Virus record (IMG/VR): IMGVR_UViG_3300033182_001391
Location: 1 to 64,000 of that record
Length of the DNA stretch: 64,000 nt
DNA from: a virus
Strand: one strand, 5' to 3'
The notes beneath the pieces are model-generated. The model worked only from the letters and a program-made list of their open reading frames with translations. It did no database searches and had not been told where the DNA came from. The position numbers were made by a program, and so were the translations under genes. Of the stretch, positions 14,001 to 38,955 are shown piece after piece (positions within the stretch are counted from its first letter, which is position 1; each line of letters starts with the position of its first letter).

Positions 14001-16566
14001 CAGACCTAAAACTGAAACAGTTGGGTGAAGTATCTTCTCCAGGAAGGGGCTCAGACATTATCTCTTCAGGCTGATTTAAAGTAGCAGTAAATGTTGCTGA
14101 GCATGAGAAGTTTACCTTGACATTGAATCTTGATGCCTTCTCTTCAGGAACAGCAACATAAGAATAAGAAGAAGAAAGCTTAAAGGGATAAGACTTAAAC
14201 GAATTTAAAACGCCAATATTATTTGAAAGAACTGCATTACCAGACGCACTTACCGGCTTAGTCAGAATAGTATAAGGGCCCATAGAAGAAAGGACACGTA
14301 GAATAGGGGATCCCTTAGTAGTATACGCATAAAGTTTTTCATCGTTATCATTCATCTTCCAAACAGTATAAGAAGACGGTATATCTTCTTCTTCTATTGC
14401 TAAGTCATTACTAATCAAAGTCGAATTATAAACTTCAACATCTGGATTAGTAGTCTCTATATACATCTCTATGGTGTCAACATTAGTAGCTATTTTATCT
14501 CTCTGATAATCTGGGAGAATTTTACTTAATTCATTTTTATAGAAATCAAGAATAGTAGGATAATCTTTAATCAAATCTCTAGCGTAAAACTGACTAGAAG
14601 AATTACTAGAAACATTTACATACAATTCCTCTCTTTCATCATCTAAAAGAGCATCATTGTTCATCACCCAAGAAGAATTCCAATCCGAAACAAAATTGTA
14701 TACAGCGGATCGGGTATCTATAATTCTACTTGAATGTGCCTTACAGTATGTCGCATACGCAGAAATGTTAAACAAAAGCTTTAGGGGACCCTCAACTACA
14801 CCAGAGTAAAAATTTCTATCCTCGGTATCAAGTGAACTGTTACCATAGTTACTGTTCAAGGGCTCTTGATTTTGAGAAGTTGAATAAATAGAGTTACAGT
14901 ACTGCAAGAAAGGGAAAGTAGTTGCAATTATATTTCCTCTGGAAATCCTATCCGAAGAAGTTATAAATGGAAGCAATGTGCCTATAGATGACGCAGCTGA
15001 AGTCTCATCAAATCCTGAAAGTATAAAAGAATTCTCAGAAGAAGAAAAAGACCTGTATCTACGATACACGGGATCTCCAGTTCTAGCAGTATTAGAAGAA
15101 CCAAATATCCCATAATACGGTTGATCAAAAGCCGTGTCATTAAGATTCCATCCACCACTTTTAGCTGAAGATAAAATTGGAGAAGTTTCACTCATGATAA
15201 TGTGATTACCAGGAATCGTATCTCTTTCAACCTGCAAGAAAGAATCCAACTCTGTTGCGTCTGCATCACCCAAGCTTAAATCTAAAACAACAGTTCCATT
15301 ATTCCTTAGAAATGTAGTTAATTTATTAGCATGAACTTCACTTATTTTAAAATTTGGAGACCAAACAAGAATATCATAATCCCTTAAATCATCTACAGTA
15401 TCTATGTCAACTTTCCAATAATCAGCCAGCAAAGTATCATCTAAGTCTGAATTTGGATTTACATATCTATACTTAAATAGATTAAAAGGAGATTTCTCAA
15501 GCCTCTGAAAAGCGTAAGGATTGATTACACTATTGGTTTTCTGATTAGAAGAACTATAAAGAACTCCAGCATTGACAGTTCTTAGGGCCAGCAGATCTCC
15601 GTCTAATTCGTCGCCAAAATCAATTTCATCAAGATTAATTGAAAGCCTAGACTTAGCTATAAGTCTCCAGTTAAAAATCTCATATGTTCTATAATCAGAA
15701 AAACCTTTTGAAGGAGAAAAAATCTGATAACCACCAGCTATATTGGAACTATCAACTAAAGTACTATATTTGTCATTAACTTTCTTTAAAGAAAAAATAT
15801 TTTTGTTATAACTATTTTTATCTACTACAGTACTTTCTTCTGGAACCTCGCTCATGTAAGGAACTGCATTAACCGTCTCAGCATAAGCCAGCTCTTGGCT
15901 AAATATATTTCCATACTCGTCAGAGTCTACCTTATCATAAACAAGCTTTAAATTAATTGGTGGATCTGCATTAAAAAATACAACTACTCTACAAGGTATT
16001 TCGTTTCTTGAATAATTATTTGAAGTTTTAAATGGCTCTAAAAGAATTCTATACTTTCTTTTTCCAGAAATAGTGTCTAAATACTCAAAGCCTTCAGAGT
16101 CAATAACTTTAATTGAGAGATCTGACAACTTGTCTGGATCAAGAAAATCTCTATCCGAGGAAGGACTAAAGAATGGAGGAGCTGAGATGAAATATCTACT
16201 AACATACTTATAGTGAATAAAATCATTTACATCGACACTATCGACATAAACACGCTGAGTGGTAAATGCTTCTGTTAGAGGAACATTTGAAATTGTCAAA
16301 TCATTGGAATAGAAATTATAATTTCCATCAAGCCTATGTAGAACACCTAGCTCATCAGCGTAGGCTAAAACTTTTTCTCCAGATATACCATTACCAACCC
16401 TATTTTCCTGTATTGAAGTAGATATATCTATGAAGCTAAGAGAATTTCCTGCAGTTATCTCTTCCGAGTTAAACCAAGCCAAGCCTACGGAATTATCGGG
16501 AACATTATTTCCTATCTTAACCGCTTTTTCTTTCCCATCAGAAGTTAAGTTAACAAACTTTTCCAT
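11068..16566 (-). CDS. Large baseplate/tail-fibre protein with a peptidoglycan-binding domain
   Basis: This 1832-residue protein is a chain of beta domains with recognisable inserts. Residues about 365-470 (LRDYDILVWSP, ANKLTTFLRNNGTVVLD) look like a GATase1/ThuA-like Rossmann domain. Residues about 885-960 are a peptidoglycan_binding_1 domain: IQYTLWTYK, then DGFYGPQTANGIRQFQQQEG and DGIVDSETKWLM, with the usual G-x-x-T-x-x-A-[IV]-x-x-F-Q core. A discoidin-like domain follows at about 1010-1130. The C-terminus has PPSLLDIRIKGGG, resembling the terminal motif of the downstream fibres. The wall-binding domain suggests this protein anchors the baseplate to the cell wall. The start shares one base with the upstream stop (TAATG). 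Confidence 0.7.
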   Translation of the reverse strand: MEKFVNLTSDGKEKAVKIGNNVPDNSVGLAWFNSEEITAGNSLSFIDISTSIQENRVGNGISGEKVLAYADELGVLHRLDGNYNFYSNDLTISNVPLTEAFTTQRVYVDSVDVNDFIHYKYVSRYFISAPPFFSPSSDRDFLDPDKLSDLSIKVIDSEGFEYLDTISGKRKYRILLEPFKTSNNYSRNEIPCRVVVFFNADPPINLKLVYDKVDSDEYGNIFSQELAYAETVNAVPYMSEVPEESTVVDKNSYNKNIFSLKKVNDKYSTLVDSSNIAGGYQIFSPSKGFSDYRTYEIFNWRLIAKSRLSINLDEIDFGDELDGDLLALRTVNAGVLYSSSNQKTNSVINPYAFQRLEKSPFNLFKYRYVNPNSDLDDTLLADYWKVDIDTVDDLRDYDILVWSPNFKISEVHANKLTTFLRNNGTVVLDLSLGDADATELDSFLQVERDTIPGNHIIMSETSPILSSAKSGGWNLNDTAFDQPYYGIFGSSNTARTGDPVYRRYRSFSSSENSFILSGFDETSAASSIGTLLPFITSSDRISRGNIIATTFPFLQYCNSIYSTSQNQEPLNSNYGNSSLDTEDRNFYSGVVEGPLKLLFNISAYATYCKAHSSRIIDTRSAVYNFVSDWNSSWVMNNDALLDDEREELYVNVSSNSSSQFYARDLIKDYPTILDFYKNELSKILPDYQRDKIATNVDTIEMYIETTNPDVEVYNSTLISNDLAIEEEDIPSSYTVWKMNDNDEKLYAYTTKGSPILRVLSSMGPYTILTKPVSASGNAVLSNNIGVLNSFKSYPFKLSSSYSYVAVPEEKASRFNVKVNFSCSATFTATLNQPEEIMSEPLPGEDTSPNCFSFRSALDDLGQGREANTSSPSNIFPYTGDIDLGNKTAIWTNGNSGDYATYIQYTLWTYKNITGRNFYPYPLDGFYGPQTANGIRQFQQQEGARYIDGIVDSETKWLMARFWKNAKENHRPSYDQSVNAAPSQVNDRVRNFILAAASTVTADKINIKDNYRKITFTGTTGPSEGVDYIYFSIPTHLETVNRIVIEGVDGWTNFKVAEYGLSSSGGNDRGSYRVTNTTLNISGSKIAIDINGPGSQNRFGYIKLVGGSLGSKYGRAEGFGIKRIKAEGITNGVPSQGTGEFEDNESPVSVDLIFDVRNIPVNGIVEIGAEQRVRVGTNELIKRFDNSDYSLNITGLSYGGRTYGLDFDVYDILNGREIFVQINNRDTIKLKLNESTFSHSRSRPSAVKNGVFTVSKVTTPTNQLIWSSDSIGVSPVGVTNIANGTTYVTGVLGTSEIYFADADVVSVSRDLSSGYSLRSFKDEGLIYKDGRKDVTVNDGVMLLCNSAGRPFGLPSASDIAAAAVDNIDDQGDLRFGSFIVSNETSEEGLVYGFYDINEKEFLGKNIQYIDFVRRGVGNIFIGVCAIDADGNTQNDNEFIGPVVDTTFRPVQVPVKYIAPVYSISINTPSSIGIGNFSKDISRFETWELPVKSGSFKKKVLFNRSYNLGSWEDNYLNQELLAEYSTVDLSTGSWSKIYGYGNYDVYDESPIIMDERKIRVRRAPILSWNHPTNYFSSVFGIVKPEFSISIRDSIFDNWVEIPYSDVRDVNCETGVIELKEAKIPSDRKLIKISYTTKNKSSMVRHINGSSIPINPVLNYEDIFFDTPMYVYILPKDLYKRSYGSSVLETNAGVYEQVTDYSPSSIINYTWDYTLFDSSSKDYNPLAIPMAIVYVLSRPRNTPPSLLDIRIKGGGVSQDRTNYELLNDIPEVLSNWDVYSAQGEAYSKGGYVIIRIPEEVRDNFIDDQEIYSVISNNLTAGIAYDLQDMNGNTWS

Positions 16567-22441: not shown

Positions 22442-23611
22442 TTAGTAAGTACTGTTGCCTATTATAACAGAGAAAACACTTATATTTCCAGCCGCCAAGT
22501 ATTCCCTAACTCCAGAAGGAGAAAAATCTTTTAGCGGCACCTCTCTACCATCTGCGGTCATAGAATTAATTGTCACACCCTTAATAATATCTGAAGACAA
22601 CTTAACCTGTCGCTCTATTTCATTTAAAGAAACAGAATCTCCTATAGTTAAAGAATTCAAATATCTTTTAACAAAAAGAGATGATTGATTCCTAACGCCT
22701 TGAATAACACCAGAAGTATTTCCAGAAGGAAGTGTAATCGTTATATTTAGACCAACACTAACCTTTTCTGCAACTGAAACATTAAACCTAATCCCAACAG
22801 GCTTGACAGCATTTATGGCAGCAAGAACAGCTTCAGGCATTCTCTTTACCGAAGATCCAACTTCCGGAACAACAATAACATCACAAGAACCTATCCCAAA
22901 AGAAGCCTCACGAATACGAACATCTTTTACACCGGAAACAGAAAGTGCAGCAAACCTCACCGACTCTGCGGTACCAGCAACTCTAGTCTTCATAGAAGCA
23001 ACTATTCTCCTCCTATAGTTGGCATCTGACTCAGCAGAGATGTTTGCGTAAACTTCTTTAGGGTTTGTGCAGAAAACTATTACAGAAGGGGCAGCAACAT
23101 AATTATGCTTAGTTAAGGTCCCCTTTGGTGCAACATAGGTATTGTTATTAAAATTGGGCTGAACTCTACCGTAAGCTTTTGTTGAACCTGCTGGTATTGT
23201 TACGGCCTCCTGCAAAGAATAGCTATACTGTTTAGAGGCAAAATTTGTAACATCATTATAGACAAGAGTATTAGCTGGAATAACAACAGAAGTACTATGA
23301 GGCTTAGAAAGATAAAACTCTATGTTAAATGATCTTCTCTCAGTAGCAACCTGATCACTTACACTCTTTCTACGAACACCATACAAATCTCCTATAAGAT
23401 CCAAATTTCTACCAGAAGCCGTAGAAAGATCAGATTGACTTACAGTAAACCTAAAAGCCTCATATAAATCAGAAACTTCATCACTGACTGCCTCAGCAAA
23501 TGCTCTAGCAACAGAACCAGGATGAACGGCAGTAATACTAGCATTCTTTTGTAGGCCATCAAGAATAGAGACTAAAATTTCAGACTTACTTTTTACACCA
23601 TAAATACTCAT
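22442..23611 (-). CDS. Baseplate J-like protein (wedge, gp6/gpJ family)
   Basis: This 389-residue protein has family landmarks. The N-terminal ASGRNLDLIGDLYGVRRK (residues about 63-80) is the signature of baseplate J proteins. VVIPANTLV is the central beta-sandwich. DANYRRRIVASMKTRVAGTAESVRFAA (about 198-224) leads to the SGVKDVRI domain. The C-terminal domain contains VNAVKPVG-like sequence (INAVKPVGIRFNV). J/gp6 proteins form the wedge ring that couples hub and sheath. The gene starts directly next to the stop of the gp25-like gene, the classic W-J order. Confidence 0.9.
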   Translation of the reverse strand: MSIYGVKSKSEILVSILDGLQKNASITAVHPGSVARAFAEAVSDEVSDLYEAFRFTVSQSDLSTASGRNLDLIGDLYGVRRKSVSDQVATERRSFNIEFYLSKPHSTSVVIPANTLVYNDVTNFASKQYSYSLQEAVTIPAGSTKAYGRVQPNFNNNTYVAPKGTLTKHNYVAAPSVIVFCTNPKEVYANISAESDANYRRRIVASMKTRVAGTAESVRFAALSVSGVKDVRIREASFGIGSCDVIVVPEVGSSVKRMPEAVLAAINAVKPVGIRFNVSVAEKVSVGLNITITLPSGNTSGVIQGVRNQSSLFVKRYLNSLTIGDSVSLNEIERQVKLSSDIIKGVTINSMTADGREVPLKDFSPSGVREYLAAGNISVFSVIIGNSTY

Positions 23612-23992
23612 TTATGCTCCCAATTCTTGATTTATAGATAAGGTTACAGGCTGATCTAGGTCAGACATTATATGAATATCAAATCTAATAGTATCCGGTC
23701 CTGTAGGTATAGCATCTATCTTAATCATTCTTTCCTTAAATAAACCTTCTCTTTGAAGGGCTGTACGAATTATTTTTTTACCCAACTCACCTGTTGACTG
23801 CCTTTGAGGCATGCCGTAAAGAACGGATAGATCTGTACCCAAAAGAGGATATATATAAAAATCGCCAGGTTCAGTCATAAGCCTAATGTAAACCTGCTGA
23901 ATATCAGACTGCATAGACGAATTCGTTAATGCAACATCCTTAGAACCATTTAAAGCTATATCGCCATTAAGTGTGAAGTAAAAATCACTCAT
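23612..23992 (-). CDS. gp25-like baseplate wedge protein (lysozyme-fold W family)
   Basis: This 126-residue protein is the usual length for gpW/gp25 wedge proteins. It has ALNGSKDVALTNS at the N-terminus, DIQQVYIRLMTEPGDFYIYP and LLGTDLSVLYGMP in the core, then KIIRTALQREGLF and a final beta segment. The family links inner wedge to sheath and helps start sheath assembly. Despite its lysozyme-related name it is not catalytic. It overlaps the spike gene's stop by 8 nt (ATGAGTGA) and abuts the J-like gene, as in many contractile injection systems. Confidence 0.87.
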   Translation of the reverse strand: MSDFYFTLNGDIALNGSKDVALTNSSMQSDIQQVYIRLMTEPGDFYIYPLLGTDLSVLYGMPQRQSTGELGKKIIRTALQREGLFKERMIKIDAIPTGPDTIRFDIHIMSDLDQPVTLSINQELGA

Positions 23993-25018: not shown

Positions 25019-27949
25019 TTAATAATTTATTATAGTTCTTCTAACAGGACCCTGAGGCTGCCATCCACCCGAATATATAACTTCATAGTACCATCCATTT
25101 ACCCAATTCTGTGCATACTGAGAAGATTTCGAAGAAGCACCAGCGGTATTAAACATCTCTAAAACCCAATCTCTTAACACTGTTTTACTCTTACCCGTTG
25201 AAGCCTCATATACTTCTACTGCTGTTTGAAAATCAACATTAGAGATCCAACCATAATCCGGACCACCACCATAATCCCCCCAGGCAAAGAAATAGTACGA
25301 AGATTGTGGATCTAAGCCAAGTTTTTGATCTTCTGTCAAAACACCATTAGGAGTAGTTCCTGTTATTATTTTATATAACATAAATGCTTGATTAACAGGA
25401 ATCAAAATTTCATCAGAAAGATATCTGTACATCTCAGAAAGCTCATAGCCAGAAACATTCGCCCTATAATTATTTCCAGCATTTCCTGCTGCTGTTAAAA
25501 ACTGTTCAAAATTAGATATACCCTCATCTAACCACTCATCATAAGCCAACTTCCAACCATACTGAGTGCCATTATTAGGAAAGAAGAAAGAGAAATCCTT
25601 ATCACCATGAGCTAACATATTTATTTGCCACATAGTAGCAGACCAATCTCCGGTAACAGAACCAGACTGGCTAGACTCAATGTTATCACTGTAGTTAACA
25701 CCAGGAAAATAACCGACATGAGTCCATTTATATGTTCCATCAATATACTTATAGGCGCTAGCGGTGGCATCACTTAACTTTAAGCCATCTATACTATTTG
25801 CCGCATTAATAATCTGATAACCATTGCCCATAGATATTCCAACATGCCCACTTACCCCATTACTGGCCCCTGGGCTCACGGGAAGATTGGTATCCCTATC
25901 GGTCCAAGGATAGACCAGAATCGCACCAGGTGTATTTAAGGCAGTTTCGACATCAGGAGTTCCATTATCTAAGGTAAAGAGATTACCGGCATCTACCATA
26001 ATATCTCTAATAGTGTTAGTCGTACTCCAATCCGCATTTTCTGATGCGATATTTGTTAGTTGCCATCTTCCGCCAACTTGCTTAAAATATATTCCAAGTT
26101 GGTAGGCAATCCAATATATAAAACCCGAACAATCCCAACCCGAAATTTGACTAGCAGGTTTAGCAACATCTGCAGCTGTAGGTGAATTGCTTATATACAG
26201 CGAGTACCCCCTTGACGATTGTTGACCAAGGGCCTCTTGCCCTTTTGCTATAAAACTATTTGGAGTAACAAAAGATTCTCCACTAGAGCCAGAAGTAGAT
26301 CCAGATATTCTTGCTTGAGGATTAAAAGCTGCCGGTCTAAAATTACTTTCTCTTTCTGCTATAGCAGTGAAGATTGCAGCAGCTTCGTCTGAACACACAG
26401 TTCCCCTTAAAAGGTCAAAGACTTCCTGGGCAGAAAGGCTAGTGACTTGAGAGTTCCTATAACTAGTATTAAGTCTTGGGTTAGAGAATATATCCCCCAC
26501 CAAAACATAGGTACCCTCAATCTGAGGCAAAGCATCTAGGTGTCCATCAGAGAAATCCACACTACTATCAAGACCATTTGCCTCTAAGGCCAAAACTCCA
26601 GGACCCGAATAAATTCCCGATCTGTACGCACCAAAGCTCAGATGTATATGATTTCTATGCTCAGAAATACCGCTATGAAAATCAACATTAGCCAAACCAG
26701 GATATCTTACTCTTAGCGGAGAATTTCCCAACTCAAAATCATCGTCAGTAATTTCATACTCAGTTGCAAGATCTGGATGAACAGATATTGAGTCAGGAAG
26801 AAGATATGGATGACTCATACCTATTATATTTAGCTCTTCCATCAATAGCTCAAAACCAACCCTAAAGGTAGAACCAGAAACACCACCACCATTATTATTA
26901 AAATTAACAGAATCTTGACCATTTCTTCTAGAAATATTAGTTATATCAACCGCTCTACCAAAAACATGATCTAAAACATACATTCCAACAGTAGAACCGT
27001 TGATGTTATATACGTCATTAGAAGACACAATTTGACTACTTACTCCAGTATTGCACTTAATAGATATTCCTGAATCATCAGAAGACAAATAGATTAAAAG
27101 TTCTATAAGAGCAGGGGCAAGGTAGGCTACAGAAGAACTTGTTCCATTAATTAAATCTTGACTAACTTGTGAAGTAGAGAAACTACCACCATAGCTCTGT
27201 TCAGTTTGTCTAAGATTAGCAATATCATTAGGTATGTCAAAAGCAAAGCCATTAACTAAGTTTTCAGAATCTTCTACAATACCCGTATCATTAAGAACTC
27301 TTAACCTGTCCCTATGCCAACCTAATTCTTGCTCAGACATGGTAGAACCCAATGCTATATCTCTTCCTACTGCTCCCGTTAATTCAACTCCAGTAATATA
27401 ATTATAAGTTCCATCATGTATATTTCCATCAATAGAAGTTGCAGAAAGGCTAGTTCCTTCTGATGAAATTGCTCCATTTAATCTTGCCATTGCTCTTGCA
27501 ATGCTATTTTTTAAAACCTGATCTTGACCACTTTTAGCTATGCTAGCCATCAAAGCTGCTTGTGCAGCACCTCGTGTTTTAACTATTGCAGATTTCGGGT
27601 CAGCAGAAAGGCTATCTTCAGAAAGAAGGCTAATACCACCTTCAGCGTTTTCATCTGAATTATTAGATCGCAGAGTAACAGCATTCTCCGCACCGCCGAC
27701 AATAATACCATCAAAAGTACTCTCTGTACTATTTAAGCCATCCAATAATCCGTATTTTGCACTCCTATAAATGCCATGGCCAGATAAATAATCTGCTTGA
27801 GTGCTTCCTGACAAACTGTTCTTGTATGGACCCTCTACAGAATTTGTTGTAGCCTTTGCCTTAATCTCTCCTTTAGGATAGGTGTTTTCAACAACTTTTC
27901 TTGTTAAACTACCAAACGTAACAAGATTATCAGCACTAAAACTTGTCAT
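25019..27949 (-). CDS. Tail-associated wall hydrolase: M15-like peptidase plus lysozyme/transglycosylase domain split by an NlpC/P60 domain
   Basis: I place the start at ATG 27949 (976 residues); an earlier TTG would overlap the hub stop. Three enzyme signatures are visible. First, DHVFGRAVDI (H328, D335) and NHIHLSFG (H434, H436) match the zinc ligands of M15/VanY-type DD-peptidases. Second, AIAERESNFRP (E534) opens a lysozyme-like transglycosylase fold whose second half resumes at SATMWQINMLAHGDKD (W774). Third, between them lies an NlpC/P60 domain with WDCSGFIYW (C607) and GHVGIS (H702). Together they could cut glycan strands and peptide crosslinks during injection. The C-terminal 180 residues are unassigned. 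It follows the hub by 2 nt, consistent with a hub-mounted enzyme. Confidence 0.82.
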   Translation of the reverse strand: MTSFSADNLVTFGSLTRKVVENTYPKGEIKAKATTNSVEGPYKNSLSGSTQADYLSGHGIYRSAKYGLLDGLNSTESTFDGIIVGGAENAVTLRSNNSDENAEGGISLLSEDSLSADPKSAIVKTRGAAQAALMASIAKSGQDQVLKNSIARAMARLNGAISSEGTSLSATSIDGNIHDGTYNYITGVELTGAVGRDIALGSTMSEQELGWHRDRLRVLNDTGIVEDSENLVNGFAFDIPNDIANLRQTEQSYGGSFSTSQVSQDLINGTSSSVAYLAPALIELLIYLSSDDSGISIKCNTGVSSQIVSSNDVYNINGSTVGMYVLDHVFGRAVDITNISRRNGQDSVNFNNNGGGVSGSTFRVGFELLMEELNIIGMSHPYLLPDSISVHPDLATEYEITDDDFELGNSPLRVRYPGLANVDFHSGISEHRNHIHLSFGAYRSGIYSGPGVLALEANGLDSSVDFSDGHLDALPQIEGTYVLVGDIFSNPRLNTSYRNSQVTSLSAQEVFDLLRGTVCSDEAAAIFTAIAERESNFRPAAFNPQARISGSTSGSSGESFVTPNSFIAKGQEALGQQSSRGYSLYISNSPTAADVAKPASQISGWDCSGFIYWIAYQLGIYFKQVGGRWQLTNIASENADWSTTNTIRDIMVDAGNLFTLDNGTPDVETALNTPGAILVYPWTDRDTNLPVSPGASNGVSGHVGISMGNGYQIINAANSIDGLKLSDATASAYKYIDGTYKWTHVGYFPGVNYSDNIESSQSGSVTGDWSATMWQINMLAHGDKDFSFFFPNNGTQYGWKLAYDEWLDEGISNFEQFLTAAGNAGNNYRANVSGYELSEMYRYLSDEILIPVNQAFMLYKIITGTTPNGVLTEDQKLGLDPQSSYYFFAWGDYGGGPDYGWISNVDFQTAVEVYEASTGKSKTVLRDWVLEMFNTAGASSKSSQYAQNWVNGWYYEVIYSGGWQPQGPVRRTIINY

Positions 27950-27951
27950 AA

Positions 27952-30900
27952 TCAATCCACCCTTCTAGGTAGCGCTGCCTGCTCATACGAACCTACAACA
28001 GACATAGATTCTTTTTGCAAATCTTTAACATAAACTTTAGCTAAATTATTAACAACCAACTCCCAGTTTAAAGTAACCGGAGTGCCATCTTCATAGTACT
28101 CATCCCATAAGGTAATTGGCCATTGTGAAGCAGTCTCGTAAACGCTTTCAAGACACTTAATGTAAACCAAAGTATCAAATACAACATAATTATTCTCTAC
28201 AAGTTGCTGACCTAATTCAGATAATTCTGGAACATAGTTCTCAAAAAAGTTATATTTATTTTCTGCAACAAGTGAGCTGATAACTTCAGCGTAAAGTTTA
28301 TCGTATCCCATGAAAAATACTGATAGATCATCTAGCTTCTGCTTATATTTTTCTTTTACTTCAACAAAATTATTCACATTACCTGACTCTAATAAAGAAT
28401 TAAATATAGAAGAAACAAAACTAACACTTTGAGAAATAACATCATCAGTAAAATGATAGAAAATAGTAGCAATAGTTCTATCAAACTGATCCTGAACATA
28501 ACTAGACGGCTTATTATAATCTGCACCTGCATCAAAGTCCTCATTTGTCCCAGCCAAAGACTCACGAGATCTATTAACCCTCAAAACAATAACCTTATTT
28601 AAAATTTTATCCTTAACAAAGAACTTAGCTTTACCACCAGGAGTTGATACATCTAAAATACTTAAAGTATAAGATTCAGAATTTTCCTCTGAATAAACTT
28701 TTCCTTCCATAACATTTGTTTCTTCGGTGTTAATGCCATCAAAACGAATTGTGAACGGATCGCCACCCCTTAAGATGTCAACAACTTTTATAGTGTCACC
28801 GTCAACAACATCAACAACTTTTACCAAAACTTTAAACTGAGGCTCTAATTGAGCCTTGTCTGGACCCAAACTAGAAAGATTCAAAACCCTAGAATGAACC
28901 AAAGCGTTTTCATAACTGATATATCTTACGGCTTCTTTTATTTCTGTTTCTCGCCAACCCAAACTCTTAAACAAATCATCACTTCTAACATAAGAATATC
29001 CTTCAGGAGTTCTTATCTTAGTCCTAACCCCCAATATACCAGGCAATAATGCTTTGCTATGGTATTGACCAACAACCATACCCTGACTATAAGAAAGGCC
29101 AGAATCCATAGGTTGACCATTTCTATTTAAATACTGAACATAGCATCCGTGTTGATCTAGCAGATTATCCCTAACCCACTTCCACCCCTTCCAGCCTAAT
29201 TGGGATCCAAGAGAACCAACAATCGGACCAGCCACTAAACCTGCTGCACCTCCAGTAGCAACAGTTGCAACTGTACCAGCTAAAACACCGAATCCAATAG
29301 AAGCAAGCGCGGCACCGCCGGCAGCATTTGTATTGGCCTGAGTCTGCCTTATAACTGCTTCGGCTGCATCTGGCATAGACTTAGCTGTTTCTAGAGCTAT
29401 TGCATCTTTAACTATTGCACTAGAACCATGGGTAAACTGTAGCCCTCCAACAATTTGAGTCGAAAGCATGTCGCTCAATCTGTCGATAGAAATAGATCCA
29501 CCAATCATCATTGAAGAATCACCATCTCTAATACTGTCAAGATAAATTCTTGCATCGTTTCTAATTGCTTGAGTGTTCATCCAGGAACTTATCCAAGAAC
29601 TTAAATACCATCTACTTGGATCATTAACGGTAACAAGCGCATTCGGTGTAATCGCCGTAACAAAACCTAGATCGCTAGTAAAATGATGGACAACTTGTTC
29701 AACCTCAAATAAACCATACATCCTCTCATAAACATCAGACAAATAAACCATGTCATGAGGTCTAATATCTGGATTGCCAATAACTAACAATTCTCCACCA
29801 TAAATATCTTTAATAGATTCCTTCAAATGAGCAAGAGCAACCCTTCTGGCACTTAGCTCATCTGGACTTCCCTGAATATTCTTTGCGACCCCCCTAAAGG
29901 TTTCCAATGGATGCATAAGCGGATGCAGGAAACCAAAGAAACCACTTCCAACCATATTATCATAGTACAATCCAGTTTCTACTGTTTTTTCTGTTTGGCG
30001 TTCAGCTGGAGCCCCTTTATCTAGAGCTACAGTTACCGGATATTTTCCATCAGAGACTGCAGTGACGACTGTTGAAACGCCATTTAAATTTTCCTCTATG
30101 TTGTTAGCTAAAATGTGAGAGAAAGAACTTATATAGTGCAGTCTTTGGAAAGGCTCCCTAACTTCCAAAACAGGTTCTCCATATTCCCTTGTAAAAGGAT
30201 TGTCCACAGCTCTGAGTAAAGATCCCTCCCTACCCAAAGAGTAGTAAATGGAATCATTAAGAACCTTATTCATTACGTGTGCGTGCTTCCTAAAGTCTGC
30301 CGCCTCAGACACACCATATCCCAACTGCTGCATACTCAACTTAAACATAGAATATAGGCCACTAAGACCAGTAGTCAATGCTGTAAAAATAGGACCAACA
30401 TTTTCACTAAAGAAATCTTTTACGCTAGAGACAGAATAAGATATAATGTTATTAGAACTATTTCCCTCTGCTTTAGTTGCAACCAAAAGTTTTAAGAATT
30501 TGCTTTGACCAGAATCTGAAGACAAAGCTCCTTTCGCGTAATCTGCGTATGGGTCAATGAATGCTCTAAAAACCTTATCGACAGACCTAAAAGACCACTG
30601 CTCGTCAGTAAAAGAATTTCCACCAAATAACTTTCTATCTGGCTGAAGCACGAGCCAAGCTCTTCCGTAGGCATTATTCCAGAGAGCCTGCCTAAACATT
30701 CCAACCATCAGCAAGAATAATTGCTTAGGAGTATCTATCTGCGAAGCCAGTGAAATAGAAGGTTGTTCCGTATCAGAACCCTCTATACTGACCTGTAGCA
30801 CATTATTAATACTAGGGTCATCAAAGAAGTTTTCCTTGAACTTTTGCAGCCTTTTAACTAAGAAGTTGTTTAAGCTTTCAATGAGGCCACCTTGATCCAA

Positions 30901-33900
30901 TGGAGCATCTATAAATGAAGTTCTTACAAATTCTAATGCTTCTTCAACAGAAGTCTGATATTCTACAGAAGAAGTAGTGGGATTATATTCATAGCTAGAA
31001 TCTCCTGAATAAATAAACTCATCTCCTAAAATAAGAGAGAACTTATCTAAAGCACCAGTTGTAGAAAAATTTCTAATTGCATCTATAGGTTGAGAACCTC
31101 GTAAAATATCCAAAATATAATCTGGCATTGTGGCCTCAGAATCTGGATCCATACCATAAAGATCTGCAAATATTTGCTTAACACTATCTAATGTATGATA
31201 TGAATACCTAAATTCATCCCATATATCCTGGGCATCGGCTAGGTGTCTTCCGTCTCCAGCTATAACCGAAACATCTGGACTAAAATTCTCATCATAAAAT
31301 GCTCTTGCCTCCATAGAAAGCTGATCAGCTTCAGTATAAACAGGAGTAAATGTTCCCACAATTCTTTTTGAGGCCTGCTCCGTATAGCTATTAGATCCTT
31401 CTATTGACTCCATTTCTGTTAGATATATATCTCTTAAATAATTAAACTCAAGTACATCAAATCTTTTTTGAATAACTGCTTCAAAATAACTTGAGTCATC
31501 AATAAAACCATTTCCACTATACGCATAGCTATCCAGATAAGATAGACTAGATGTTTCCACTGCTAAATATCTATCTAAAATATTATTATGATCAAAAGAA
31601 CCATTTAAAATCTGAACTGGATTACCAGACTCATTTTTTTCTGCATATAAATTGTCTGAGTCAGAATTAACAAAAGAACCAAAACCAATCAAAAAATCTT
31701 CAGACCCCTCATCAGAATCGCTAACTCTTAAAGAAAACTCTTGTGCACTAGCAACCTGCGGAGAAACAACTCCAACTGGAACCGAATCAGGAACAAAAGC
31801 AAAAAAACATTCACGTTTTATAGGATACCTTCTAAAACCAAACTGATCTACACCAGTCTCAACATCTACAAACGGTATCGCGTCTAGCACAGTTTCGGCA
31901 GCATCTCTAGCCCCCACTTCAAAATTATTTCCATGGAACCACCCTGTTATTATATTCAAATAGTATGCTGCGTCAGGAGAAACAAGCGCATCAATATCAG
32001 AAAGATTATTCAAATCAGAATCTTCAAGTTCACCCCACAAAAAATAAGCTGGCTTACAAACTACAGCTCTTTTATTAATAGGATTATAAACTAGAATTTT
32101 TCTATTCTTATAATCTGAAGCCGTTCCATATAAGTTATCAAAACCATACCTATCTTTGAACCTTTCAAGATCTACTCCGCCATTTGAAGAAGGATTATAT
32201 GGCCATTTCATGGCAACATAAAATTGCTCATCTTCTTCAGATGCTGGCTTGCCCCATTCTGATGCAATTAACGTATCGATCTCAGAAGCGCCATCGATTT
32301 CAGGTTTAGGCATTTCTACAATATCATTGGTGTTTGATAAATAATTAAGAAGATTATTAGTTCCCATTGAAATTCTTAAAGGATTTTCTAGTTCTAAAAC
32401 ATCATTTTCACCAATAAGTGTCTGAGAAGTCTCTTTTAAATAATCTCTTTCTATTTCCATTAGTTTGCCAAAATTATCAGAATAACTAGTCTCATCTTCT
32501 TCCATATCAAAAGCTGGACTCTTTAAAATTCTAACACTTTTTGTATTCGCAAAGAAAGGATATCTGTATCTATCAGGAAGATTACTTATATGACGATGCT
32601 CTTCAGAAACAATATTGACCTTACCTTCTATAGGTAAATGAAATCCGATATAGGCATTGCCTCTTGAAACCGGAATCTTAGATACTATTTCATTTCCACT
32701 ACTATCTCCATAGTAAACAAGCGACTTTGGATCAGAAAAATTAATTACTTTATTTCTCAGAGAATTAGTTGGAGCATATATTCCAGTAGAATTATTTATA
32801 TTATAGGCAGTAGAAGCAAATATTTCGTTGACATCTGATGCACCAAAAAAAGCTGCGTAATCTGCAAGAGGATTCGTAGATCTATTTAGGCCATCCAATA
32901 GTTCTGCAAGGAAATTATCTTCCTTTCTTGCAGCAGGCGCCTTGTCAACCCTGTAGCCAGTCGTGACAGGAACAACACCAGAAGTGTAAAGCCAATGAGG
33001 CTTACCATAAAAAACGGTAGACCTGTCTTCAAATGGTCTTACGGCAACAATGTAATTTGGAAGAAGACGTGCACAAGTTTGGAAAAGATCCCAAACAGTT
33101 CTCATATAAGTTTGAGCCCTAAAAGAAACTTCATCAAAACCAGGAAGATCATCATCATCATTCATAGATATAACGCCCATAGTTTTGAATAAATTTTTGC
33201 CCCCTCTACCAACAAGAATTCCCAAAAGGCTTGACCCAACAGAAACTCCTTTACCAAGATAAACTGGATTACGTGTCACTAATGTACCTACAACCGTAGT
33301 TGCAGAAGCCGTAAACGCACTAGTTCCAACCCCTAAAACAGTATTCAATATACCGCCACCCAACAAACCAGTTACTATGTCACCCGAAGGAGATTTATTA
33401 AGCTGATTATCTGCAACCAATGTATCTACTGCAAAATTGGAACCCGGTATTCCCTGACCCGACTCCATAACCAACCTGTTCCAAGATCTATCAGTAAGAG
33501 AAGCTAAATCTCTTACTGATCTAGCATTACTGTCTTCAGGGGTCAATGAGGCAACAGTTGACCAACCGTCATCAATATCGCCGCCCAAGAATTGTGCTAT
33601 CCCAGTACCATTTCCAGGATAAATATTTCTCTTAAACAATTCTAAATCAACGTCAGATTGCATATTGGCCATAAGGGTCTCTATCAAAGGAATTATAGAA
33701 GAACGCTCATTGCTAGAAAAGTTGTTTTCATCTTTTCCACGCCCTATATAATTAAAAGCTCCACTTATAGCACTAGATATCTGATCATGTTTAACCTGAT
33801 CATCACCCATAAAATCGTAGAGTATGCTACCAAAATGTCTGATACCAAATCTATTTTCAGAAAAAATGATCCCCTTAGTCGCCCTAAGTAGAGCTTCTCT

Positions 33901-36900
33901 AGTTCTAGAAGACCCCATGCTTAAAAGTCTAACCATCAAATCCCTAGGCTCAGAAAGCCACATACCAGTGTTTATACCGCCATCAATTTTTCCACTATCA
34001 CCCTTTTTATTAGTGCTATTAACCATTGCACCAAGCTCTATTGCATCAGACTGAGCTGTTACTGTTACTATTTCTCCCTGCTCAACACTTGTAATTATTC
34101 CATTAAAAAGAGTATTTAATGAATTAGGATTAGAACCATATCCAGCTCTTAGATGAACTCTAACACCAGGCTTTAACCTTATATTGTTAATATCGACTAC
34201 ATATTCATGCCTCATGTGCCCCAGCATATTTCGAGACATATTTAAAGTTCTTTCAACTATATTAGCTAAACCCTCAGTCAAAGATAATTCATCTTGATTA
34301 AATTCGTCTAAATTAGGATTGAATATCTTACTTGACTCAGGTCTAGTTATCTTAGAATACATATTAGACAATCTAAGAATTAGAGTATCACCCATAATAT
34401 CTTCAGAAGAAACAACAGAGAAATCTATTATCGACTGCAATCCGTAGAAATTATCAAAAAGTTTTACACCAGCAAAATATCCACCCTCATCAATAAGCCA
34501 CAACATATAAGTAGGGAACGCCCTTAGCATGCGTCCAGAAATATCGCGATACGAAGTATCAACCATCATCTTTTCCCAGTGACGATACTCATCACCGTCA
34601 TATGCGTTTTGATACTCTGACACACCCTTAAGAGTTGCTATGCCGCTGTTAACGGTAGTGTTTCCGGTGTCAGGAGTCTGAACATCTTGAGTTAGATTTG
34701 GTCTTAAAGAATACCTTCTGTCTTCAGATGATATTTGAACATTACTGCCTGCAACCGTCAGATAAAATCTTCCATTATTATTATCTATATAACCAAAATG
34801 TGTACCGGCTGCTGTCAACATCATGGCTGAAATCTTGTTTTCATCTAACTGGGTTTGATCATTAGCGGGAATAACCAAAATAACTTTATGGAAATCTACG
34901 TTATCAGGATGAAAACTAACGTACTCTTCATCTGGTAAACTGTAGGCACCCTCTAATGCGGCTTCTAAAGATTCTTTCATGTGATAATCAGTACCGGTAG
35001 ATAGGTCACCAACAATAAAGGAACCAACACCAGAAACTTCATTCATAAACGGATTATTCTCATCATCTTCTTCTTCAGCAAAGTTGATGAACGACGTTAA
35101 AAGCTGCCACTTTTCAACATTATTATAACCAGGAATTGTAGAGCCAAGAACTAGCTCAAAAGCTCTTATGAACTTAGCCTGAGTAATCCCCTCTTCTTTA
35201 ACATAATCAACAAGAAGCTTAATAATTAATTGTCTTTTTTCTTCTGCGCTTAAACTAGGTAGATCTGCAGACATCAAATTCTTAATCCTATCTGCAATGG
35301 CTGTTATAGGAAGATTCTGTCCATCCATTTCATAATTCCACGATGTTCCATCCCAACCAACTTGAACTTCTTCATCGTCAAAAAAGAAATCCGTAACCCT
35401 AGGAATTTCATTAGTTATATTATTAGTGACATCATCGTCAAACATCTCAAAACTTCTAAAATAGAAATCTGGATCTAGATGACCAACAGTTTCTCCAGAA
35501 GAATCTTTTAACTGTAAAGGTAAATCGGGGTAGGCATTGAAGGCACCCCACATTTGCTTAATTCTTAAAAATGGATTTTTCTTAGTTGTAAACTGCTCGA
35601 CCATATCCTTCTGCTGTTTACTACTTAACTCTTCTCTCTTTTGCTGGAAAATGTCAAAATCAACAAGAGTAAGATTTACATCATAGACATGAGGAAAACC
35701 AGGTTTTGTAGAAACCTGATAGTTCATAGGCATTACATACTTCATGCCAGACAAAGCTGTTATAACATTTTTAATACCAAGAAAACCTATAACACCTGTT
35801 GCATGCTCCAGTCTTGCGAGAGCTGTAATATGATCAAAAATTCTTTTAAACTTTACAAGTTCTTTCTCACCAATAACTGTCATAGAAATATTAATAAAGC
35901 TATCTTTACCGCCGATATGCTGATAAGAAGGTTCGTCTTGCATCTGAACCTGAAGCTTTGCAAAGTTATTAGAAAGAGAAACAGTTACACCATTAACTAT
36001 TACGGCATCAGGGTCCATGTCGACCTTAACCATTGGAACTTCCCATTCGTTAAAAGTATAGTTACCAACCCTGGCCCTAGCAGCCTCCATTAAAGACTGA
36101 ATACTTCCACTCTTAAAGAAGTTCTCGTAAAGGTAAACATTAAAAGATTTCTTAAACTCTTCCTCTATCGAAGTTATGTCAGGATGAATTCCGTTTCTAT
36201 TATAGAAATCGCTGGCGGCATCATCGACCAACTTATCCAAGAGAGAAGTAGGGTTCTTGGAGAAATCTGAGAAAAACTTTTTTACACCATTTAAATTCAT
36301 ATTTACAGAATCAGGTGCGACACCAACTGAAAGAACTTTGCCGCCAAAGAAATATGGACCTATCTCACCAGGATACTGACTGAAATCGTTATCATAAGAT
36401 CTTAACCATTCCTCAATTTCCTCCCTGTCTGCCTGGCTATTAGGAAGCCTTGCACTATTCTCGGATATAAAATCTTCAACTAAGAAACGATAGACTGCTT
36501 CAGAATCACTGTTAGTATTAATTCCTGCAGTTAAAACATTTATAGAATCTGTAACTAAACTATATATATCTTTGCTATACTCATTAGATCTAGATAAATC
36601 AACAACCTGGTTTAATTTAATTCCATACTTTGAACTTTCATTGATATCAATATCAAAGAACTTAAGTAATTCGCGCCAAGTAGTCTCACCTAAATCACTA
36701 AAGGTTTCTTCCTGAGTCGTTCTAAATGAAGCTGTATCTGGAAGAAACAGCTTTGTTTGAACTTCGGCTGGAGTATAGAAAGTAATATTATTACCATTTC
36801 TCCATTCATCAATTATATTTGTTTCTAAAATGTAGTCCCTATAAGAATCTGTAACCGTTTCGTTTTCATAGTCAGTACTGTAGGCGGCATCAGAAGGTGG

Positions 36901-38955
36901 CAAGGAAACATACTCCCTATCATTGAGCCCCACATACGCCGCATCACCGGGTGGCAAGGAAATGTAAGAGTCAGTTTCATTTACCGTATCTTGCTCTTTT
37001 GAATCCGATGTCTTAAGTAGGAATTCTTCATTAACATATTTATGTAATATGTTGGCGGCTTTACCTATATACTGACGATACTTACCCCAATGAACAGACT
37101 GATTGAAGTCTCTTAACATTGGTAGAAATGGCTTATGATTAAAATTCAGTAGTTCTATATCTACAGCCAGAGCAAACGGGAACCCTGGAACGGTAGATAT
37201 TGTCATGTTAGACAGAGCCACACCGGTTATTCCATGAATACTATTTAGGTAATGATTTTTTATTGGAAGAATAGGAGAAAACTTAAAGGCGGCAACTAAG
37301 CCCCTAAGAGAAGACAAAAATTTATCTATCTTTTCTTCACTATCACCAATTATTCTATTTCCATTTTCATCTTCTCTATATCTAAAATCTATCTCAAAAT
37401 TTTCGTTTAAATTTATTTGAGATATACCATCTATAGAAACACCCCATATTTCCTGATAGTTAGGAAAGAAAAGCCTCATAGAGACAACGGTTTCTCTGTA
37501 ACCTGAATTAAATTTTGGGCTATTAGTTTGACGTATTGCACCACCAGTTAAACTACCAGTCTTAAATCTGGTATTAACATTTATATTTACAGGTGGCACA
37601 TAGAAATTAGCTGCACCTAAACGCAAATGGAAAATATCTGGATTATTAGGAGCAATATTCTTTCTATAAGGCGATCTTTCAAGAACTTTTTTAATTCTAC
37701 TAGCTGTCGTATCAAACTCAAAAGCTAACTCAAAAACATTTTTATTACTCTCATCTGTTTGCTTTACACCAAAAGCAGCCTCTAAAGTTTCCTTAAACTC
37801 TTGAGCCGTTTCCGCAACCAAACCCCCACCAAGACCATCATTAGAATAATCAACTATAGTCGACAATGCCATAGCATAAAAATCTACTAAACTAGGAAAG
37901 TAATAGTTTATTGAGGCAAATATAATTGGATTATTATTCCAATTCTTATGAACATCTATCAATTTCATTAACCAAGGTAAATCTACCGATGGGTCAATAT
38001 ATTCAGAAGAATTCTGTTGCGCATCATAAACACTAACAAACCTCTTCTTAGCGAACTCGCCTATTTCATAAGCGTAACTTGCCAATTGAAATAAGCCTGT
38101 CTCTACTAAATTTGAATACAAAGATTTAGCCATAGAAACATCTAAAGAAGAAACATTGTTATCAATTCTAGAAAAAACTCTATAAAAATTCCCAAGATTA
38201 GAAGGAGCGCTTCTTGCCGGAGAAAAAGAATCTGAAACAAATTTATTTAAAGCTAGATCTGATCTAACACCATCTTCTTCGGTACCCAATATTGCTTTGT
38301 TTAAAAAAGTTCTTAGAGGCCCAAGATCATTTAACGTCTCTACAAAATCTGACCCCTCATCAATTGCCTCCTGCCTATCTTCAGATGCTACAACATTTTC
38401 TATTTGAGATAAATTATCTTTATTTAAATTCCCCTCATCGTGCAAAGCTTTTGCATTTTGCAATCTTTTAAGACACTGTTGAGAAAAGAAATCAATACAC
38501 TTTTCATCCAATAACCAATTATAGCTAGCAAAAAGATCTAGCAATATCTCCGCATCGTTGCTCTGATCAAAAACACCAGATAGAGAAGGATAAACTATCC
38601 TGTCACTATCGTAAGAGAAAAAGCCCTGACCATATCTATCAACTAATGAATCGACCCTGCCTACGTATAAGTCATAGTAGGTTACTACATCAAAGTCAGC
38701 TCCCGCCTGAATATCTACATCGCCTCTAGCTCCACTAACAAAAAGTGCAAACATACTACTCCAAGTTACGTAGGAGTAAGAATCATCATACGAAAATTGA
38801 ACTATTAATTTTCTTCCAACACTTTCATGAAAATAATCTTTTACGCCCTGAGCATTCGAGTTAGAGTTAGACAGAATATCAACAACTCTTTGATATTCGC
38901 TGTCATTTTCAACAATATATTTAATTTCATCAAAGGCATCGTTTGAAATTGACAT
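27952..38955 (-). CDS. Giant baseplate hub protein with a C-terminal staphylococcal-nuclease-like domain
   Basis: At 3667 residues this is the largest gene here. Two copies of a domain ending in STxPGFPxxxxVxxxLxxF lie around residues 460-620 and 950-1110. A gpD/gp27-like hub core is seen near 1570-1645 (NMLGHMRHEYVVDINNIRLK, then SLNTLFNGIITSVEQG). A second hub-like part is near 3015-3065 (PDIRPHDMVYLSDVYERMYG). Two Gly/Ala-rich hydrophobic stretches occur at about 1862-1920 and 3208-3250. Residues about 3374-3650 form an SNase-like domain: DGDT 3385-3388, R3404, E3412 and R3493 match the calcium ligand and catalytic Arg/Glu/Arg of the family. The hub would sit at the tube end beneath the tape measure. 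The nuclease role is inferred from motif conservation. Confidence 0.75.
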   Translation of the reverse strand: MSISNDAFDEIKYIVENDSEYQRVVDILSNSNSNAQGVKDYFHESVGRKLIVQFSYDDSYSYVTWSSMFALFVSGARGDVDIQAGADFDVVTYYDLYVGRVDSLVDRYGQGFFSYDSDRIVYPSLSGVFDQSNDAEILLDLFASYNWLLDEKCIDFFSQQCLKRLQNAKALHDEGNLNKDNLSQIENVVASEDRQEAIDEGSDFVETLNDLGPLRTFLNKAILGTEEDGVRSDLALNKFVSDSFSPARSAPSNLGNFYRVFSRIDNNVSSLDVSMAKSLYSNLVETGLFQLASYAYEIGEFAKKRFVSVYDAQQNSSEYIDPSVDLPWLMKLIDVHKNWNNNPIIFASINYYFPSLVDFYAMALSTIVDYSNDGLGGGLVAETAQEFKETLEAAFGVKQTDESNKNVFELAFEFDTTASRIKKVLERSPYRKNIAPNNPDIFHLRLGAANFYVPPVNINVNTRFKTGSLTGGAIRQTNSPKFNSGYRETVVSMRLFFPNYQEIWGVSIDGISQINLNENFEIDFRYREDENGNRIIGDSEEKIDKFLSSLRGLVAAFKFSPILPIKNHYLNSIHGITGVALSNMTISTVPGFPFALAVDIELLNFNHKPFLPMLRDFNQSVHWGKYRQYIGKAANILHKYVNEEFLLKTSDSKEQDTVNETDSYISLPPGDAAYVGLNDREYVSLPPSDAAYSTDYENETVTDSYRDYILETNIIDEWRNGNNITFYTPAEVQTKLFLPDTASFRTTQEETFSDLGETTWRELLKFFDIDINESSKYGIKLNQVVDLSRSNEYSKDIYSLVTDSINVLTAGINTNSDSEAVYRFLVEDFISENSARLPNSQADREEIEEWLRSYDNDFSQYPGEIGPYFFGGKVLSVGVAPDSVNMNLNGVKKFFSDFSKNPTSLLDKLVDDAASDFYNRNGIHPDITSIEEEFKKSFNVYLYENFFKSGSIQSLMEAARARVGNYTFNEWEVPMVKVDMDPDAVIVNGVTVSLSNNFAKLQVQMQDEPSYQHIGGKDSFINISMTVIGEKELVKFKRIFDHITALARLEHATGVIGFLGIKNVITALSGMKYVMPMNYQVSTKPGFPHVYDVNLTLVDFDIFQQKREELSSKQQKDMVEQFTTKKNPFLRIKQMWGAFNAYPDLPLQLKDSSGETVGHLDPDFYFRSFEMFDDDVTNNITNEIPRVTDFFFDDEEVQVGWDGTSWNYEMDGQNLPITAIADRIKNLMSADLPSLSAEEKRQLIIKLLVDYVKEEGITQAKFIRAFELVLGSTIPGYNNVEKWQLLTSFINFAEEEDDENNPFMNEVSGVGSFIVGDLSTGTDYHMKESLEAALEGAYSLPDEEYVSFHPDNVDFHKVILVIPANDQTQLDENKISAMMLTAAGTHFGYIDNNNGRFYLTVAGSNVQISSEDRRYSLRPNLTQDVQTPDTGNTTVNSGIATLKGVSEYQNAYDGDEYRHWEKMMVDTSYRDISGRMLRAFPTYMLWLIDEGGYFAGVKLFDNFYGLQSIIDFSVVSSEDIMGDTLILRLSNMYSKITRPESSKIFNPNLDEFNQDELSLTEGLANIVERTLNMSRNMLGHMRHEYVVDINNIRLKPGVRVHLRAGYGSNPNSLNTLFNGIITSVEQGEIVTVTAQSDAIELGAMVNSTNKKGDSGKIDGGINTGMWLSEPRDLMVRLLSMGSSRTREALLRATKGIIFSENRFGIRHFGSILYDFMGDDQVKHDQISSAISGAFNYIGRGKDENNFSSNERSSIIPLIETLMANMQSDVDLELFKRNIYPGNGTGIAQFLGGDIDDGWSTVASLTPEDSNARSVRDLASLTDRSWNRLVMESGQGIPGSNFAVDTLVADNQLNKSPSGDIVTGLLGGGILNTVLGVGTSAFTASATTVVGTLVTRNPVYLGKGVSVGSSLLGILVGRGGKNLFKTMGVISMNDDDDLPGFDEVSFRAQTYMRTVWDLFQTCARLLPNYIVAVRPFEDRSTVFYGKPHWLYTSGVVPVTTGYRVDKAPAARKEDNFLAELLDGLNRSTNPLADYAAFFGASDVNEIFASTAYNINNSTGIYAPTNSLRNKVINFSDPKSLVYYGDSSGNEIVSKIPVSRGNAYIGFHLPIEGKVNIVSEEHRHISNLPDRYRYPFFANTKSVRILKSPAFDMEEDETSYSDNFGKLMEIERDYLKETSQTLIGENDVLELENPLRISMGTNNLLNYLSNTNDIVEMPKPEIDGASEIDTLIASEWGKPASEEDEQFYVAMKWPYNPSSNGGVDLERFKDRYGFDNLYGTASDYKNRKILVYNPINKRAVVCKPAYFLWGELEDSDLNNLSDIDALVSPDAAYYLNIITGWFHGNNFEVGARDAAETVLDAIPFVDVETGVDQFGFRRYPIKRECFFAFVPDSVPVGVVSPQVASAQEFSLRVSDSDEGSEDFLIGFGSFVNSDSDNLYAEKNESGNPVQILNGSFDHNNILDRYLAVETSSLSYLDSYAYSGNGFIDDSSYFEAVIQKRFDVLEFNYLRDIYLTEMESIEGSNSYTEQASKRIVGTFTPVYTEADQLSMEARAFYDENFSPDVSVIAGDGRHLADAQDIWDEFRYSYHTLDSVKQIFADLYGMDPDSEATMPDYILDILRGSQPIDAIRNFSTTGALDKFSLILGDEFIYSGDSSYEYNPTTSSVEYQTSVEEALEFVRTSFIDAPLDQGGLIESLNNFLVKRLQKFKENFFDDPSINNVLQVSIEGSDTEQPSISLASQIDTPKQLFLLMVGMFRQALWNNAYGRAWLVLQPDRKLFGGNSFTDEQWSFRSVDKVFRAFIDPYADYAKGALSSDSGQSKFLKLLVATKAEGNSSNNIISYSVSSVKDFFSENVGPIFTALTTGLSGLYSMFKLSMQQLGYGVSEAADFRKHAHVMNKVLNDSIYYSLGREGSLLRAVDNPFTREYGEPVLEVREPFQRLHYISSFSHILANNIEENLNGVSTVVTAVSDGKYPVTVALDKGAPAERQTEKTVETGLYYDNMVGSGFFGFLHPLMHPLETFRGVAKNIQGSPDELSARRVALAHLKESIKDIYGGELLVIGNPDIRPHDMVYLSDVYERMYGLFEVEQVVHHFTSDLGFVTAITPNALVTVNDPSRWYLSSWISSWMNTQAIRNDARIYLDSIRDGDSSMMIGGSISIDRLSDMLSTQIVGGLQFTHGSSAIVKDAIALETAKSMPDAAEAVIRQTQANTNAAGGAALASIGFGVLAGTVATVATGGAAGLVAGPIVGSLGSQLGWKGWKWVRDNLLDQHGCYVQYLNRNGQPMDSGLSYSQGMVVGQYHSKALLPGILGVRTKIRTPEGYSYVRSDDLFKSLGWRETEIKEAVRYISYENALVHSRVLNLSSLGPDKAQLEPQFKVLVKVVDVVDGDTIKVVDILRGGDPFTIRFDGINTEETNVMEGKVYSEENSESYTLSILDVSTPGGKAKFFVKDKILNKVIVLRVNRSRESLAGTNEDFDAGADYNKPSSYVQDQFDRTIATIFYHFTDDVISQSVSFVSSIFNSLLESGNVNNFVEVKEKYKQKLDDLSVFFMGYDKLYAEVISSLVAENKYNFFENYVPELSELGQQLVENNYVVFDTLVYIKCLESVYETASQWPITLWDEYYEDGTPVTLNWELVVNNLAKVYVKDLQKESMSVVGSYEQAALPRRVD
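28053..28834 (-). other. SNase-like (thermonuclease fold) domain of the hub, interrupted by an insertion
   Basis: The order of motifs follows staphylococcal nuclease: VVDVVDGDTIKVV (first hairpin, D3387 as the calcium ligand), FTIRFDGINTEET (R3404, N3409, T3410, E3412), GGKAKFFVKDKILNKVIVL (helix 1 and strand), and DQFDRTIATIF (R3493). The last helix, NWELVVNNLAKVYV, matches VNEALVRQGLAKVAYV of the enzyme but comes about 120 residues later, so an insertion separates the beta-barrel from the final helix. The second calcium ligand (Asp40 in the Staphylococcus enzyme) is Asn here. Confidence 0.78.

Follow-up and report, generated by a model that had tools for sequence, protein, structure and literature searches.

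The window considered here, i.e., the whole stretch of 64,000 nucleotides that was analyzed, derives from a 71 kb virus record and contains an open reading frame of 976 amino acids (P0001) on the minus strand, starting with an ATG at 27949 and ending with a stop codon at 25021-25019. The original prediction had placed a nested wall hydrolase at 25019-27949 and these coordinates are correct, the reading frame itself lying on the minus strand; the residue numbers used there for E534, C607, H702, W774, and H328 likewise all match the translation. The features of the locus are listed in Table 1. From its N-terminus, the protein would comprise a variable region, a LAS-type zinc-peptidase-like domain, and a lysozyme/lytic-transglycosylase-like domain. 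Residues 1-190 are the least conserved part in the comparison with the independent contig L002 (49% identity). This N-terminal part forms its own upstream ORF in the L024, L028, L030, L031, L013, and L032 groups of relatives, so that separate coding of the N-terminal region and of the enzymatic part is possible.

Table 1. Features of the hydrolase locus, in positions of the window
Feature	Position	Strand	Evidence
Predicted baseplate wall hydrolase, ORF P0001, 976 aa	25022..27949	-	Full-length homologue L002 (n=1, 72% identity)
N-terminal region, residues 1-190	27380..27949	-	Separate ORF in several relatives, e.g., L024, L030
LAS/MD-clan zinc-peptidase-like domain, residues 268-455	26585..27148	-	Invariant motif residues; Extensin-like_C matches
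HxxGxAxD motif, H328-D335	26945..26968	-	Alignment of relatives
HxxHxH motif, H431-H436	26642..26659	-	Alignment of relatives
Lysozyme-like domain piece 1, residues 488-545	26315..26488	-	Leave-out profile, 60 bits
Putative catalytic Glu534 codon	26348-26350	-	Conserved in 43/43 homologues readable there
Inserted segment, residues 546-766 (~221 residues)	25652..26314	-	Absent from 41 homologues; present in L002
Linker 1, Ser/Gly-rich, residues 546-560	26270..26314	-	Sequence; fast-changing relative to L002
NlpC/P60 cysteine-peptidase domain, residues 561-750	25700..26269	-	Cys607, His702, Asn715; hhalign, Foldseek
Linker 2, Ser/Gly-rich, residues 751-766	25652..25699	-	Sequence; 53% identity to L002
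Lysozyme-like domain piece 2, residues 767-956	25082..25651	-	Motif GDWSATMWQIN; leave-out profile, 173 bits
Baseplate-J / gp6-like wedge protein, anchor for relatives	22442..23611	-	phrog_6, E 1.3e-38
Small baseplate-like protein	23612..23992	-	Weak baseplate matches phrog_975, phrog_120, phrog_2669

The neighbouring genes match tail sheath, major head, baseplate-J (gp6-like), and baseplate-like families, which places the protein within the baseplate module of a contractile tail, and the synteny of the hydrolase gene with baseplate genes is retained in relatives. Such a position is that of a tail-associated lysin, for which a location in the virion is predicted. Searches with the whole protein against PHROGs and PDB, with the protein against phage records, and with query A1 against genome contigs found nothing, and the window protein used as a query in viral contigs retrieved L002 only. 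The neighbouring baseplate-J protein was used as an anchor, alone at first and then as an 18-sequence alignment, leading to about 100 loci; at most of these a homologue of the 976-aa protein sits a few kb upstream of the baseplate-J gene. The minus strand of the window also encodes a giant baseplate-region protein of 3667 aa (27952-38955), with a thermonuclease-like sequence in its C-terminal part (KVVDVVDGDTIKV...IRFDGINTEETNV) and no Pfam match over the whole protein, as well as a protein of 1832 aa (11068-16566) with a weak mid-protein match to an endolysin family (phrog_1493, residues 885-960, E 1.5e-4).

Interruption of the lysozyme-like domain

Insert-free homologues align to the window protein up to residue ~545 and again from ~766, with few residues in between. 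From Glu534 to Gln775 the window protein spans 241 residues and L002 spans 243, compared with 18-32 in 41 homologues, and both positions are conserved (Gln775 in 44/44 homologues, Glu534 in all of those readable there). A profile of 25 insert-free relatives, from which the window protein and L002 were excluded, matched the window protein with 233.7 bits in total. The match falls into two collinear pieces, which adjoin the insert on either side: residues 490-546 correspond to profile positions 8-64 (60 bits) and residues 763-956 to positions 63-250 (173 bits). None of 500 shuffled copies exceeded 4.4 bits. Based on the homologue spacing and on this two-piece match, we assign the E and QIN motifs to one lysozyme/transglycosylase-like domain (residues ~488-545 and 767-956) that is interrupted by residues 546-766, i.e., to a true domain insertion. 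The view that an NlpC/P60 domain lies inside a single lysozyme/transglycosylase domain is supported by both the insert-free homologues and the profile comparison.

Alternatively, the segments carrying the E and QIN motifs could be separate tandem modules with NlpC/P60 standing between them, and not one domain. This would fit the Pfam matches of single proteins, which are weak and restricted to the first piece, and the structural model, in which the QIN region is unresolved (pLDDT ~30 around WQIN, so that the packing of E534 and W774 is not readable). On the other hand, the two pieces are contiguous in the 41 homologues and the leave-out profile stays in register across the insert, which makes a tandem arrangement very improbable. 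Tandem modules without a shared fold were rejected on the E-to-Q spacing of the homologues.

As for the family to which the interrupted domain belongs, Phage_lysozyme2 matched residues 507-552 of the window protein with an E-value of 0.072, under the Pfam cut-off. Across 27 family members, the matches were to SLT_3 (13), Phage_lysozyme2 (9), and SLT (8), with a best E of about 1e-4, and among the matches listed with cut-offs none reached the Pfam gathering score of a named lysozyme/transglycosylase family. Once the insert is absent, the catalytic Glu lies closely before a GxxQxN-type motif in a single domain. The family profile aligned without gaps to lysozyme C (5xuw; also 6ukc and 1ivm) over the catalytic Glu and the DYGLFQLN strand. 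We take Asn543, Gln545, and Gly767 to be the equivalents of Asn44, Asn46, and Gly49 of hen lysozyme (HEWL). By this alignment and numbering, the insert would thus take the place of the tip of the first beta-hairpin (about HEWL residues 46-49), bordering the cleft. Ser770 takes the place of HEWL Asp52; two residues earlier there is Asp768, which is found in 30/44 sequences, being kept in the nearer homologues and absent from the distant ones. Since Ser770 stands at the Asp52 position and Asp768 is partly conserved, the domain could be either a lysozyme or a lytic transglycosylase.

The inserted NlpC/P60 domain and its borders

Within the insert, residues 561-750 form an NlpC/P60 domain. When the two nested inserts were compared with 7 NlpC/P60 sequences, hhalign gave a probability of 95.3% (E 2.3e-8) and brought the DCSGF and GHVGI motifs into register; the profile comparison thereby bore out the assignment made in the original prediction. 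Taken one by one, the sequences score low: NLPC_P60 (Pfam) covers residues 601-637 of the window protein (E=0.022, under the cut-off), the window copy alone reaches 14.5-17.3 bits against PF00877 (under the cut-off of 23), and the L002 copy scores 17.1 bits in a whole-protein scan, although in a six-frame search it passes the cut-off with 23.4 bits. The PDB profile matches to the insert are headed by NlpC/P60 enzymes (7cfl, CwlO first, LytE lower), each of them weak singly. Cys607, His702, and Asn715 are all retained in both nested inserts (n=2), and the Cys and His align with 25 NlpC sequences. The domain is divergent and enlarged, with a long segment between Cys and His.

AlphaFold2 run from the single sequence gave a pLDDT of 32 and that model was discarded. 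A mixed alignment that forced NlpC fragments onto the insert produced a model with a mean pLDDT of 58.5; in the Cys/His-aligned fragment set the fragment ends overrun lysozyme columns, and the model was used only for the NlpC core. Here, with moderate confidence, Cys607 starts a helix and His702 is on a strand. The top PDB match of the model in Foldseek was the P60 domain 3i86 (prob 0.98, E 0.029), with papain-like proteases next, and the NlpC/P60 topology proposed around C607 is found in the model core. The predicted activity of the insert is that of an endopeptidase acting on stem peptides.

In L002 the insert occupies the identical site; the two proteins are 72% identical overall and about 71% identical within the insert. 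For this pair, dN/dS amounts to 0.13 in the NlpC domain, 0.13 in piece 2 and 0.04 in piece 1 of the lysozyme-like domain, 0.09 in the zinc-peptidase-like domain, and 0.31 in linker 1, all of these ratios being rough because synonymous sites are near saturation. They indicate that the insert is under purifying selection. An assembly chimera, or a recent functionless insertion in one genome, would account for the scarcity of nested examples and for nothing more, and hardly any credence can be given to it in view of the shared site, the insert identity, and the purifying selection seen with L002. A chimera is refuted by L002 unless the artefact is common to both contigs. It is also conceivable that the nested NlpC/P60 has no catalytic activity and is kept as a spacer or wall-binding module for substrate binding or spacing, as its divergence and enlargement might suggest, and only two nested sequences document the conserved triad. 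However, both sequences retain Cys607, His702, and Asn715 in typical DCSGF/GHVGI contexts, dN/dS in the domain is low, and the modeled positions of Cys607 and His702 are those described above; we consider an idle module improbable.

The borders of the insert are Gly/Ser-rich (SGSTSGSSGES and SSQSGSVTGD). Linker 1 has 67% identity to L002 and changes faster than the adjoining domains, and residues 750-766 form another fast-changing border (53% identity). The proposal that nesting would couple the positions of the two hydrolases is unsupported, since such stretches flank the insert on both sides. Flexible borders of this kind make it less probable that the lysozyme and the NlpC/P60 enzyme are rigidly fixed relative to each other; a functional link between them would still be compatible.

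The zinc-peptidase-like domain and variation among relatives

The domain that precedes the lysozyme had been described as M15-like. Among 31 relatives, H328, G331, R332, D335, H431, and H436 do not vary, and H434 is almost invariant. Pfam searches of these relatives matched Extensin-like_C in 18/31, M15_4 in 3/31, and M15_3 in 1/31, with a best E of 0.0013; Extensin-like_C, Peptidase_M15_4, and M15_3 belong to one clan. A PDB sequence-profile search with the domain gave no meaningful chain match. The HxxGxAxD zinc motif and the terminal His ligand of the LAS/MD clan are both present. The catalytic Glu of the E-x-x-H motif of M15 is absent, and its position is held by the invariant His431 (HxxHxH). 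An H-x-H motif has been reported for MepA and E-x-x-H for VanX (PMC3927764), so that the arrangement here resembles the former and differs from the latter. Because HxxHxH replaces E-x-x-H, we call residues 268-455 a LAS/MD-clan zinc-peptidase-like domain, nearest to Extensin-like_C, and not a canonical M15 peptidase. The M15-like label thus holds at the level of the clan and fails for M15 proper.

A search of 77 distinct records, made in two batches, detected NlpC/P60 nowhere except in the two nested cases and the two L006/L007 records. In the latter, the NlpC/P60 domain is C-terminal and above the Pfam cut-off, and the near relative L006 has the tandem order with the lysozyme first. Within the sampled set, neither the nested NlpC nor the C-terminal copy of L006 is the other's closest match. 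C-terminal extensions with a GCEGF/GCDRF...GH(N/D)GIS pattern were also observed in L080 (residues about 860-1030) and L089 (about 770-930); their scores are weak and they are possibly divergent CHAP/NlpC-like Cys-His peptidases.

The same lysozyme loop that holds the NlpC insert shows a frame change of +1 or -2 in L073-L076 and L084-L086, e.g., at about 2240-2280 in L084 and about 5900-5940 in L085. In these contigs, frame 1 runs from the catalytic-Glu helix to FVNN and frame 2 starts with SGAFGLWQF, with no nearby start codon. The seven contigs fall into two sublineages with a synonymous divergence around 0.6-0.7, and dN/dS is 0.07 and 0.10 on either side of the change. Given two diverged sublineages and low dN/dS on both sides, the frame change looks old and maintained, and a programmed frameshift is possible in L073/L084-type contigs. 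Of these frames, L077 has only part of the downstream one. In L079, a frame change occurs later in the lysozyme domain (about 6213-6260), after the first 160 profile positions.

Proposed role and comparison with known systems

We consider it very likely that the 976-aa protein is a baseplate entry hydrolase of a contractile-tailed phage, with three predicted active sites and a nested NlpC/P60 domain. In this protein, the hairpin tip at the mouth of the lysozyme cleft would be replaced by a complete NlpC/P60 domain carried on two flexible linkers. Judging from the gene context, the protein would be located at the tail tip and act at tail contraction, when the baseplate would press it against the cell wall. 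The families involved suggest which bonds would be cut, i.e., the glycan by the lysozyme part and stem peptides or cross-bridges by the zinc and cysteine peptidases, and the conserved residues point to cutting by all three sites. In this way, a single protein might perforate the wall locally so that the tail tube can pass. More speculatively, and with considerable doubt, the insertion may itself be functional: an NlpC/P60 domain near subsites E/F (HEWL) could meet the stem peptide of the very glycan bound by the lysozyme, the two cuts then following one another at one site, or the peptidase could gate access to the glycan cleft.

Bifunctional wall hydrolases of the CwlT type (Tn916 family) have a lysozyme-like domain followed by NlpC/P60. 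Like the window protein, CwlT unites glycosidase (lysozyme-like) and peptidase (NlpC/P60) domains in one polypeptide for wall crossing; its domains, however, are in tandem rather than nested, and it belongs to a conjugative element and not to a phage baseplate. The phage tail enzyme phi29 gp13 (PDB 3csq) also joins a lysozyme-like (Phage_lysozyme2-like) domain to a peptidase, and there are a weak match of the model to 3csq and weak PF18013 matches in the family. Unlike the window protein, gp13 has an M23 zinc peptidase appended C-terminally, without insertion. In the Bacillus phage vB_BauM_KLEB27-3, gp036 is annotated as an LT-like structural protein, carries an SLT-like motif and an HxxGxAxD motif, and occupies the same slot as the window protein, between a giant baseplate protein and gp25/gp6-like genes. 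Nevertheless, its domain order is reversed, its SLT motif is classical, it is without NlpC/P60, and it had no detectable homology to either family profile. Together with the relatives that have a C-terminal peptidase, KLEB27-3 suggests that this gene position in the baseplate module has repeatedly been filled by proteins uniting glycan-cleaving and peptidase domains, nesting being the unusual form.

The bacterial enzymes CwlO, LytE, and RipA have the Cys-His-polar triad and the sequence profile in common with the insert. They are free-standing or terminal domains, whereas the copy studied here lies within an enzyme loop and has an enlarged Cys-to-His segment. In mycobacteria, the NlpC/P60 peptidase RipA acts together with the lysozyme-like transglycosylase RpfB (PMC2262848); these are two separate proteins, while the window protein joins both activities permanently by insertion. 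Open-access papers, searched by word matches only and thus giving weak evidence of novelty, contained no NlpC/P60 or other peptidase inside a lysozyme/transglycosylase. All components are known, as are their tandem combinations, and within this limited literature search the nested form of NlpC/P60 in a lysozyme is newly described.

Phage entry enzymes and endolysins are usually described as beads on a string, whereas here one enzyme lies within the fold of another. The locus points to a loop of the lysozyme fold that accepts a whole enzyme of 200 residues, and the reading-frame change in the same loop of other relatives singles out that loop further. Moreover, the bare lysozyme (about 41 proteins), the appended peptidase (L006), and the nested form constitute a natural series that would allow a direct test of whether nesting alters activity or only adds it.
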